A DNA stretch of 64,000 nucleotides from Candidatus Nanopelagicales bacterium (GTDB taxonomy: Bacteria > Actinomycetota > Actinomycetes > S36-B12), in contig JAQTZL010000001.1 of the NCBI GenBank assembly GCA_028687755.1, forward strand, positions 62,001-126,000, written 5' to 3'. Both the position numbers and the translations under genes were made by a program. Positions within the stretch are counted from its first letter, which is position 1. Every line of letters starts with the position of its first letter. The notes under the pieces are model-generated. The model saw only the letters and a program-made list of their open reading frames with translations. It was not told the DNA's origin and searched no databases. Shown here piece by piece: positions 2-3,508 of the stretch.

Positions 2-133
2 GCTGTTGCCATCAGTGAAGCCGTCGCTTTAGTAACCGATCTTTCAACAGATGAATCGTCTTCATTTGTGAACGGGTTGCTTGGGCGAATCTCTGAGATC
101 AAGCCTTCGCTTGGAATTCCTTCAGCTAGTTAG
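2..133 (+). CDS. nusB: Transcription antitermination factor NusB (C-terminal fragment)
   Basis: The frame opening at base 2 runs without a stop to TAG at 131-133 and gives 43 residues. They contain the pattern ISEAVALVTDLSTDES followed by FVNGLLGRI, which matches the conserved last helices of NusB (a consensus like NEAVELAK...SsgFVNGVLdki). NusB binds boxA RNA with NusE/S10 in rRNA antitermination complexes. Only the 3' end lies in the window, so the start and the RNA-binding N-terminus cannot be seen. The stop codon overlaps the stop of the convergent minus-strand gene by 8 bases. The family call is fairly sure because the FVNG motif is characteristic. Confidence 0.8.
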   Translation, partial: AVAISEAVALVTDLSTDESSSFVNGLLGRISEIKPSLGIPSAS

Positions 134-731
134 AAACTGTGACTGCAGGTGATAAATCAGTGCTGGCGACCGCATTGGTCACTGTGCCTCGCAGTGTGAC
201 GTTTGTGGCTCCTGTTGTACCGCCGCCAGTTCGAGTGACGATTACTAAACCGTAATAGTTCGTATTGGCTAGGTTTCCAACAGTTTCAACTGTATTCGTT
301 TTCGAAACGTTTGTTGTGGTTGCCGCCTGAATCACTGATTCAGTGCCACCACATACGGTTCCAACATAAGGAACAGTGCATATCTTTATCTGCAGGTTGC
401 GACTGTTACTCAGCCTATTCCAGGTCGCGCGCATGGTCCATTTAGCTAGATCAACAGTGCTGCTATTGGTGAGTGTGAAAGGAATGGTTTTCACCACGGG
501 ATTTGTACCGCTGTAGGTGCCCGTTGATCCAGTGAAGTCAGCCCCAATGGCTCCAAAGCGGATACCCCATTGCGCTGAGACAGCAAGCTGTTGATCGGCT
601 TGCGCTGATGTTGCCGAATTGCTTGCTGTGGCGGTTTGCACAGCATTGGCTACAGCCAGTGGAATAGATGACAGCATAAGTACTGGTGCTAGAAAGCTTG
701 CGGCAAGTGCGAAGTTCGGTTTCATGATCAT
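126..731 (-). CDS. Secreted protein with ordinary signal peptide, last gene of the SipW-like module
   Basis: This 201-residue protein starts at ATG 731, or more likely at the second ATG at 725, which removes MI. Residues about 5-30 form a Sec signal peptide with a hydrophobic core and an AxA-type site (AVANA, cleavage before VQTA). The mature part is rich in Thr, Ser, Asn and Gly, has two Cys about nine residues apart near the middle, and looks like an all-beta secreted domain. I do not recognise a named family. It follows the SipW-cognate gene by about 5 bases with no clear Shine-Dalgarno site, so translation is probably coupled. It lacks the GVxAxLQAT..NSGN signature of the two upstream proteins, so it may use a standard signal peptidase. 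A structural or surface role alongside them is inferred from position only. Confidence 0.7.
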   Translation of the reverse strand: MIMKPNFALAASFLAPVLMLSSIPLAVANAVQTATASNSATSAQADQQLAVSAQWGIRFGAIGADFTGSTGTYSGTNPVVKTIPFTLTNSSTVDLAKWTMRATWNRLSNSRNLQIKICTVPYVGTVCGGTESVIQAATTTNVSKTNTVETVGNLANTNYYGLVIVTRTGGGTTGATNVTLRGTVTNAVASTDLSPAVTVSN

Positions 732-735
732 TCAA

Positions 736-1605
736 TCAACTTGCTATGGAGGTGGGATTGCGTTGTGTGGTGGTCAACGTGAACTTGAGTGAAGAAGTTT
801 GATTTTGAATCGTATTTGTTGTTGGAATAGAACCATTTTGGACACTCTGGGTTGGCGCAAGAGGCAAAAAGAATTTGAATCGCAATCTTGCCACGGCTGT
901 AGAGTTATCAGTCGTCGTGGAATTTGAAGTCAGCGTTGTAAATGGATTTGGTGCAGCACCGTTCAAGTTTGAGGGAGTCGCAATGAGCGACTTTAGGTAG
1001 GTCTGCGCGACAACATTGACAATGTCCGAAGTGTTGTTGCCACATAAACCCGGAGCAGTTCCAACAGATGTCCACCCTGAAGCTACATTGCAATGATCAA
1101 CGGTGAGCTGCAAACCTGGAATGGTTCCAGTTGCGCCGCAGAAAGTCCCATCAACTGTGGTCGCGTTGCATCGGGAAAGTGCAGAGCCTGCACCCGCATT
1201 CGCAAGATCAGATATCTGCATCGTGAGTCCCGTGCCATTGACGGCTCCGCTGAGATACAAATTCACGAAACGATAAACCGTGTCGCCAGGTTTCATGGCT
1301 TTTGCGGTGATGCCGTCGGTGTTCCCCAGACGCCAACTCGTTGTTCCAGACTGTAAAGGGATTGCAGGCGAGGTTACAGTCGCAAGGCCAAGACCATTTG
1401 ATCCTCCAGTGGACTCAGGATTGGGGCTGAGTACGAGCGCCAAGATGCCGCTTTGAGTTTCGAGTGGATTGCCAGAATTATCCGATGTCGCCTGGAGTGA
1501 TGCTAAGACTCCAGTGGTACTTAATGTGAAGCCCCCAATTGCAATCACGGCTGCAAGAAGGAATCGGAAGAGCAGATTCCTCGGTGCCGGGGGTCGCACG
1601 TTCAC
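736..1605 (-). CDS. SipW-cognate exported protein (TasA/camelysin-like), paralogue 2
   Basis: A 289-residue exported protein starts at GTG 1605, with a strong AGGAGG Shine-Dalgarno site at 1611-1616, five bases upstream. The N-terminus has a positive stretch, a hydrophobic segment ending in STTGVLA, then SLQATSDNSGNPL. This is the pattern of SipW-dependent signal peptides, in which cleavage by a dedicated peptidase falls near the A-x-LQA position. The body shares ordered blocks with the neighbouring 233-residue protein: a GxLxLxLxP segment, MxPGDxVYRF, a VDxC/WTxV/PGxC cysteine block, and a C-terminal QRxxTxxAS. The two are therefore diverged paralogues. Related proteins in Bacillus (TasA, camelysin) form surface or biofilm fibres. 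That function here is an inference. Probably an extracellular or wall-associated beta-sandwich protein. Confidence 0.75.
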   Translation of the reverse strand: MNVRPPAPRNLLFRFLLAAVIAIGGFTLSTTGVLASLQATSDNSGNPLETQSGILALVLSPNPESTGGSNGLGLATVTSPAIPLQSGTTSWRLGNTDGITAKAMKPGDTVYRFVNLYLSGAVNGTGLTMQISDLANAGAGSALSRCNATTVDGTFCGATGTIPGLQLTVDHCNVASGWTSVGTAPGLCGNNTSDIVNVVAQTYLKSLIATPSNLNGAAPNPFTTLTSNSTTTDNSTAVARLRFKFFLPLAPTQSVQNGSIPTTNTIQNQTSSLKFTLTTTQRNPTSIAS

Positions 1606-1666
1606 GGTTTCCTCCTATCAGAGGTGGGTGGTCGTAGAGCAATGGTCACTACGACCACCCATGTGG

Positions 1667-2368
1667 TTATGAAGCGGTTGTTGTTTCCGTGCGTTGCTGC
1701 TCAGTAAATGTGAAGGTCAAGTTAGTTGAGAGTCCCTGAATCGAGCCGGGAGGCAGCTCTCCATTCGATGTAGTTTCGGAACTTGTTGGCAACGAGATTT
1801 TGATTCGTGCATATTTCACTGCTCCCGGGGCTATTGCCACAGCTGGCCCAACGACATCCTTGGTACCAAACGACGAAATTGACGTCGATGCAATTGGGTT
1901 CGTCGTAGTTCCGGAGCAGGTGCCCGGTTCTGTGGTGACGGCAGTCCATGCCACGGAACATAGGTCTACAGCGACTGCAAGCCCATTTGCGCTTGTCGTT
2001 AGTTCGTTGGCGGAAGACCCCGCGACGCCAAGAGTCATGCCTAGTGCCGGCAATGAGCCGCCGTTGGTGAGTTCAATAAATCGATAGACGATGTCACCGG
2101 GTGCCATGGCCGAAATAGCTGCGGCTGCCGCACCGGTCACGGCAGGTGTTGTCGTTCCTGTCGTACCTATACCAGCTCCGATCGGTGTCAACGTGAGACT
2201 CAATGTTCCAGTAGACGTAGCCAATGCATTGCCGGAGTTGCTCGCGGTAGCTTGAAGTGCAGCCCAAACGCCTGACGTCGTCAAGGACAGCCCGCCCACA
2301 GCGACAATTGAGGCTGCCGCGATCTGGGCTCCTGCTGGCCAAGAGGCCGTCAGTGATTTGCCGAACAT
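1667..2368 (-). CDS. SipW-cognate exported protein (TasA/camelysin-like), paralogue 1
   Basis: This 233-residue protein starts at ATG 2368, with AAAGGA about seven bases upstream, and follows the signal peptidase gene by 18 bases. The signal region carries AVGGLSLTTSGVWA, then ALQATASNSGNAL, matching the SipW-dependent class with probable cleavage near VWA-ALQ. The mature part shows MAPGDIVYRF, a two-cysteine block (VDLCSVAW and PGTCSG), and a C-terminus TEQQRTETTTAS that parallels the next gene's TTTQRNPTSIAS. The composition is low in charge and rich in Thr, Ser, Ala and Gly, typical of secreted adhesive or fibre proteins. Its position directly after the peptidase suggests it is a substrate. 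The exact function is unknown. Confidence 0.78.
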   Translation of the reverse strand: MFGKSLTASWPAGAQIAAASIVAVGGLSLTTSGVWAALQATASNSGNALATSTGTLSLTLTPIGAGIGTTGTTTPAVTGAAAAAISAMAPGDIVYRFIELTNGGSLPALGMTLGVAGSSANELTTSANGLAVAVDLCSVAWTAVTTEPGTCSGTTTNPIASTSISSFGTKDVVGPAVAIAPGAVKYARIKISLPTSSETTSNGELPPGSIQGLSTNLTFTFTEQQRTETTTAS

Positions 2369-2386: not shown

Positions 2387-3508
2387 TTACTGATGTTGAA
2401 GTTCTTGGTCATTTGCGCCGGTGATTTGTTCTGGTTTCTTGGCAACTGGTCGGGCAGCGACTCCGTACATCAGGAGCAAGGTGCCCGCTGTTCCAAGTAA
2501 CCCGATGATGGCGGCGAACCCGGCAGGCGAACCGATTCCAGGCAAAATCGCACCTATGTATGGAATGACTGCAACTGCCGCATAAAGCCGTTGATTTGGA
2601 TCCACTTGAACACTTGATAGTCCAGAAGGTGCACTTGAATTCTCAAGGCCTATGACAACGAGGTTCTTATTACTCACAAGTTTGATCGAGTGCGTCTTGA
2701 CCTTTTCGATGGTGGCAGAAAGTGCTCCAGGCATCGTTACTTGCAAATAGTCACCGTTTTGGATCGTGCTGGAAATGCGAGGTTGAAGGAGCACAACCGA
2801 CTGAGTGGGTAGACCGTGTGAATCGGCAGTGACGGGAATTGTTGCGACAGTGAATCCCAAGAATGAACGAATGCCGACGAGAACCAGAAATCCAAAGCCA
2901 ATGAACGCTGTAATCACGCGTAAACGAACGGGATTCGTCGATTTAAGTGTTGAGGTGGAACGCGCTCCTGCATCCTCAGCTCTCCGCTTCAACATTGGCG
3001 CAATCATGAGGAGAAACGGAATGCCAAGAGTAAGTAAACGTCCTGGCAATGAATCTAGGAATGGAAACGCATTGAGAAAACGAGGTATTACGGCAATGAC
3101 ATGCGAATTGATTGCTGCCGTGGTGATTTGCTGAATGTCTTGGGTCTTATTTGCGTCGCCTTTGGTGATCCATGTGTCACTCGTGTCACCCTGGGCAATG
3201 ATTCTGTGAGAGGTTTGATGCCCATCAGCTGGCGAATCAAAAATATAAATATCGTTAAGAACGACATTGCCATCAAAAGGCTGGGTGATGAGTAAATCTT
3301 CTACGTTGGCAACAGGCTCCATTGACTGTGACAGGACAGTGGCCGTAGAAAACCCTGCAAAACGGCCCACGGCGATCACGCCAACTAGCAGAATCCAGAA
3401 CGCAGCAAACGCGATGACTGCATAACGAATGTAGTCACGCGCAGTTTTGGGAACGGTGATAGCACGAGAGTCTTGCTCTCGCTCTTGATGAACTTCGTTC
3501 ACCGACAC
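2387..3508 (-). CDS. SipW-like signal peptidase I (Ser/His type) with a degenerate second half
   Basis: This is a membrane signal peptidase of the archaeal/ER/SipW class. From the chosen GTG start at 3508 it has 373 residues. GGAGG at 3514-3518 lies five bases upstream, whereas the longest frame would begin at TTG 3520, inside that site. After TM1 (about 28-50) come SQSMEP with the catalytic Ser at about 62, SHRII with His at about 101 in place of the usual Lys, and TKGDANKTQD with the conserved Asp positions. TM2 follows near 145-162. The second half repeats the layout: TM3, a GFTVAT...VVLLQP segment that aligns with GFSTAT...DLLITQP, an AVIPYIGAILP segment like AVIPRFLNAFP, and TM4. It has lost the Ser and His. 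The gene heads an operon with three exported proteins, two of them with SipW-type signals. Confidence 0.85.
   Translation of the reverse strand: MSVNEVHQEREQDSRAITVPKTARDYIRYAVIAFAAFWILLVGVIAVGRFAGFSTATVLSQSMEPVANVEDLLITQPFDGNVVLNDIYIFDSPADGHQTSHRIIAQGDTSDTWITKGDANKTQDIQQITTAAINSHVIAVIPRFLNAFPFLDSLPGRLLTLGIPFLLMIAPMLKRRAEDAGARSTSTLKSTNPVRLRVITAFIGFGFLVLVGIRSFLGFTVATIPVTADSHGLPTQSVVLLQPRISSTIQNGDYLQVTMPGALSATIEKVKTHSIKLVSNKNLVVIGLENSSAPSGLSSVQVDPNQRLYAAVAVIPYIGAILPGIGSPAGFAAIIGLLGTAGTLLLMYGVAARPVAKKPEQITGANDQELQHQ

Follow-up and report, generated by a model that had tools for sequence, protein, structure and literature searches.

SipW, the ER-type signal peptidase of Bacillus (family S26B; model NF046067), is a Ser-His enzyme made of one module, spanning 189 positions in the model, with two flanking helices, and its gene adjoins those of its TasA/CalY-like substrates. 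In B. cereus, TasA and CalY function only with the cognate SipW (PMC4292775). The archaeal signal peptidase I and SEC11 type, represented by TIGR02228, also consists of a single module. In other S26 systems an active peptidase acts with, or is encoded beside, non-catalytic partners, as in the eukaryotic signal peptidase complex and the Staphylococcus SpsA/SpsB pair; the accessory subunits of the former are not built on the S26 fold, and SpsA is a member of the Ser-Lys class. Unlike those partners, which are separate polypeptides, the two modules of the protein described here share one chain: a predicted catalytic S26B module is followed by a second, apparently degenerate one. A search of the literature, mainly open-access papers, returned nothing relevant on fused, tandem or inactive S26B modules; this does not prove absence, and the fusion of an S26B peptidase to a degenerate S26B module is apparently a new arrangement for the enzyme family.

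The gene lies in a 64,000-nucleotide stretch of the genome of a Candidatus Nanopelagicales bacterium (contig JAQTZL010000001.1, positions 62,001 to 126,000), here called the window. Its frame of 373 amino acids is uninterrupted, and a GGAGGG Shine-Dalgarno-like site precedes the GTG start (Table 1). An earlier note on this DNA had placed a gene at these positions, where the frame does exist, but left the minus strand unmentioned; the motifs it cited (SQSMEP, SHRII and TKGDANKTQD) and all its quoted motif pairs are present in the translation. Hydropathy analysis places helices at about residues 25-50, 151-174, 192-218 and 327-352. Given these four helices and the basic linker and tail, we infer that both soluble domains lie on the outer face of the membrane. 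AlphaFold2, with the three orthologs as input, gave mean pLDDT values of 35 for the whole protein and 43 for the second half, and was poor even for the catalytic half.

Table 1 Features of the peptidase gene and its operon, in window positions. Residue numbers are those of the peptidase.
Feature	Position	Strand	Evidence
Double-module SipW-type signal peptidase, 373 aa, GTG start	2387..3508	-	Open frame and translation; same-length orthologs, 81% and 66% identity
Module 1, residues 20-175, predicted catalytic S26B module, helices ~25-50 and 151-174	2984..3451	-	TIGR02228 E 1e-12, NF046067 E 2e-8; independent SipW-type profile 114.6 bits
Ser62, predicted nucleophile (SQSMEP)	3323..3325	-	Column Ser in 64/64 relatives
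His101, predicted general base (SHR)	3206..3208	-	Column His in 64/64 relatives
G117-D118 (KGDANKTQD)	3155..3160	-	Columns Gly-Asp in 64/64 relatives
Linker, residues 176-191, basic, predicted cytoplasmic	2936..2983	-	Variable between orthologs, pN 0.25-0.45
Module 2, residues 192-352, predicted degenerate S26B module, helices ~192-218 and 327-352	2453..2935	-	HHalign 92%, E 5e-7 against 60 single-module relatives; purifying selection
Ala228 at nucleophile column (Ser in ortholog L002/L033)	2825..2827	-	Alignment to family profile
His273 at catalytic His column, invariant in three orthologs	2690..2692	-	Ortholog and family-profile alignments
G287-L288 replacing Gly-Asp	2645..2650	-	Family-profile alignment
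TasA/CalY-like exported protein, likely substrate, signal peptide ...SGVWA-ALQ	1667..2368	-	PF12389 19.9 bits; homologs pass; co-occurs with SipW-type genes 5/5
Strong intercistronic hairpin between TasA-like gene and next gene	1625..1661	-	z -5.2
Paralog of the 1667..2368 protein, exported, likely substrate	736..1605	-	Found by the 1667..2368 protein, E 4e-10
Exported protein, last operon gene, 4 nt after preceding gene	126..731	-	Open frame, signal-peptide-like start

The first half of the protein shares its catalytic residues and overall module with the archaeal/SEC11 type and with SipW, as the earlier note had proposed in calling it a SipW-like peptidase. The match to TIGR02228 (archaeal/ER-type signal peptidase I) covers residues 31-138 with E 1e-12, and that to NF046067 covers residues 50-169 with E 2e-8; the Pfam S26 match is weaker (E 0.005). 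Both model scores lie below their cutoffs (48.2 against 51.85 bits for TIGR02228, 34.2 against the equivalog cutoff of 190 for NF046067), so module 1 is to be read as S26B-like by residues and profile and not as a Bacillus SipW equivalog. Aligned with 64 SipW-type relatives, the protein matches the SxSMxP nucleophile motif with S62-M63-P65, has its catalytic histidine in an HR pair (H101-R102) in place of lysine, and shows the GDxN...D motif as G117-D118-A-N120 and D124. A sequence search of the PDB with the whole protein gave SEC11C as the best match (E 0.07), covering the first half only. Two positions depart from the family: E70 (window 3299-3301, minus strand; N in one ortholog) stands where 64/64 relatives have Gly, and N85 (3254-3256, minus strand) where 61/64 do. 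These substitutions may alter the substrate cleft, and because the two glycines are near-invariant, module 1 is likely, though not certain, to be active as a peptidase.

That the second half repeats the module of the first was the central claim of the earlier note, and comparison with independent relatives bears it out. The self-alignment it proposed gave a weak result: aligning the halves directly yielded a score of 51, which full shuffles equalled or exceeded in 0.8% of cases and local shuffles in 1.7% (p about 0.01-0.02), and a half-against-half HHalign comparison of profiles, with three sequences each, gave E 0.015. Both are suggestive of homology and are not proof on their own. S26B proteins were gathered from the order and class, and an iterated profile was built from them without this protein's own sequences as members; its membership is thus independent, although the gathering was seeded with the first half (A3). 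Compared by HHalign with the three second halves, the profile of 60 single-module relatives gave a probability of 92.4%, E 5e-7 and a score of 44.8, in a colinear match over 120 columns. The highest control scores were 25.3 for 450 shuffles, 18.3 for the reversed profile and 21.8 for 150 unrelated membrane-protein ORFs. The match persisted when only relatives from outside the order were in the profile (E 6.6e-7) and when the window sequence alone represented the second half (E 4e-6, 86.7%). HMMER likewise aligned the second half to the S26B profile from its first helix through its last, with domain scores within the full proteins of 7.0 bits (window) and 14.3 bits (L002), and scores for isolated second halves of 10.7 (window), 17.9 (L002) and 3.4 bits (L003); whichever of four shuffling schemes was used, at most 1/1000 shuffles matched the summed score. 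Conversely, a second-half profile searched against all ORFs of the fetched loci ranked two single-module SipWs first and second. Since a profile of independent relatives matches it colinearly, with a score well beyond those of shuffles and of unrelated membrane proteins, the second half is, judged by its sequence, a homologous, degenerate S26B module. Chance resemblance between two membrane-anchored beta domains would fit the marginal direct self-alignment and the lack of a usable AlphaFold2 fold, but is very improbable given those 120 columns, their distance from the same controls and their persistence with outside-order relatives only.

The catalytic signature of module 2 is largely lost. 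Across the three orthologs the nucleophile serine has become A, S and A, and the Gly-Asp pair reads G-L, G-F or N-L; of the other signature residues, Met is replaced by Asp and Pro by His. The description of this half as lacking Ser, His and GD thus holds for the serine (A228) and for Gly-Asp (G287-L288) in the window protein, but not for the histidine, since His273 aligns with the catalytic column. It does so in the window protein and L002; the HMM alignment is shifted in L003, while all three orthologs share the residue when aligned with one another. T227, D229, H231 and G232, which form T227-x-D229-x-H231-G at the former serine loop, are invariant in the three orthologs, as is H273. Between the two closest orthologs, pN is 0.12 and pS 0.76 for module 2, compared with 0.074 and 0.67 for module 1; by the same comparison the linker and tail, unlike the modules, are variable. 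On these values module 2 is under purifying selection and is not decaying.

The peptidase gene opens a run of four genes that share its direction (3508 to 126) and are separated by gaps of 18, 61 and 4 nt; this accessory operon sits between nusB and an SDR gene. The product of the second gene scores 19.9 bits against PF12389, whose gathering score is 22.5, and its homologs in L125 and L124 (43% and 39% identity) score 27.9 and 29.1, above the cutoff. In a PDB search with this protein, the second and third places go to TasA structures, at E values that are not significant (0.16 and 0.22). Around the predicted cleavage site, where Trp occupies P2, its signal peptide is reminiscent of the TWA-A region of TasA (PMC10269814). 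Clear homologs (E < 1e-20) occur in exactly 5 of the 85 family genomes, and in all five a SipW-type gene, double-module in three cases and single-module in two, lies immediately upstream. One of the single-module genes, that of G022 (L124 2783-3532, minus strand), is apparently frame-disrupted, with the His part in frame and the serine part not; this may be an assembly error. Family-model searches found no match for the last protein of the operon.

Both modules and the downstream genes are kept in all three orthologs, with TasA/CalY-like genes adjoining the peptidase in each; the earlier note had suggested a search for same-length homologues near SipW-cognate proteins. Like the window (Table 1), both orthologous operons have a hairpin between the TasA-like gene and the next gene (L126 3450-3542 and L127 1400-1520, both minus strand; z -4.2 and -6.8). 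The presence of a hairpin there in all three operons, with different sequences, suggests that an element in the mRNA makes the expression of the two flanking genes differ. In other genomes the locus differs: nusB and the SDR gene adjoin in G066, about 166 bp apart and with no cluster, and in G063, G064 and apparently G062 the space between them is taken by a different ORF, about 260-325 aa long. As the operon is absent or replaced between nusB and SDR in G066, G063 and G064, it is a gain-loss unit. The protein encoded in the interval in L131, L133 and L134 (G064, G062 and G063) has a single helix, and its sequence (e.g. VGTTRVGSIFTDETYSSSGWAV) bears a slight resemblance to the start of a SipW-cognate protein.

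Full-length orthologs of the peptidase were found in 3 of the 9 genomes of the genus, those of the window, G065 (81% identity) and G061 (66%). The remaining 76 family genomes had none, and no further ones turned up in the order, the class sample or the phylum sample. A search of genome contigs recovered only the same two orthologs, both recorded as Actinobacteria MAGs and, we infer, of freshwater origin; a search of viral contigs gave no relatives. Against the phylum sample of 396 genomes, the second-half profile produced one short, weak match only. Three ORFs of similar length with weak matches to this profile (L009-L011) were rejected as AI-2E-type transporter proteins on inspection. No further double-module protein was present among about 40 actinobacterial S26B proteins of at least 280 aa that were examined. 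In six loci from other actinobacteria of the class (L060, L061, L066, L068, L071 and L077), an S26B peptidase carries, fused to it, a second helix that leads into a SipW-cognate-like start and domains that by eye are LamG-like; it looks as if exported domain and peptidase were one protein.

The origin of the two halves may be either of two events. Their homology agrees with the internal duplication originally proposed, but the tree does not join them, and the second-half profile gives other single-module SipWs better ranks than the first half of the same protein. The tree does not separate self-duplication from fusion of two paralogs, and a fusion of SipW paralogs is also compatible. Adjacent S26B genes are known from the same order (L055, L063 and L064); here too two modules lie side by side, but as separate genes, each with intact Ser, His and Gly-Asp. 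Tandem genes of this kind are a plausible source for a fusion.

We consider it probable, with some reserve, that the protein is an active SipW-type peptidase for the downstream TasA/CalY-like proteins that carries a tethered non-catalytic partner module. The operon and the co-occurrence of the genes point to a dedicated S26B, SipW-like Ser-His peptidase, in which module 1 would cleave the signal peptides of the TasA/CalY-like preproteins, the putative substrates. Module 2, in the same chain, without nucleophile or Gly-Asp and kept by selection, would be the partner; it may pack against module 1 and stabilise it, and may help to dock or position cognate preproteins; the earlier note had put forward a substrate-selecting platform as a possible role. 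A point against a role of this kind is that SipWs of one module suffice for similar genes within the family. In a related genus, a SipW-type gene (L005/L125, 184 aa) lies directly upstream of TasA-like homologs (46% identity) and has no second module, so in general such substrates can do without module 2.

Other readings of module 2 are less probable. Bacillus SipW reportedly has a second, non-proteolytic role in biofilm gene control (Terra et al., going by the title), and by analogy module 2 might be a sensory or regulatory domain and no processing partner; its predicted extracellular position and an operon without a regulator gene make this unlikely. Slightly less probable still is a new catalytic or metal-binding site of its own, built from T227-x-D229-x-H231-G and the retained His273. 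All five residues are invariant while the S26 signatures are lost, yet the three sequences are related and most columns are conserved anyway, and no known site resembling it was found. It is just as improbable that module 2 has been rebuilt into such a site and gives the chain, beside its Ser-His signal peptidase, a different activity or ligand-binding function acting on the same TasA-like proteins. That module 2 is a functionless, decaying duplicate would explain the missing serine and Gly-Asp and its faster change relative to module 1 (pN 0.12 versus 0.074), but is very improbable and largely refuted by strong purifying selection, at a divergence where synonymous sites are nearly saturated, and by a frame intact in three species.

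If the partner module sets specificity, the protein would offer a natural two-module system for studying how dedicated signal peptidases choose TasA-type substrates, a choice that is poorly understood even for SipW. The locus also presents a TasA/CalY-like export operon as a unit of gain and loss in small-genome actinobacteria.
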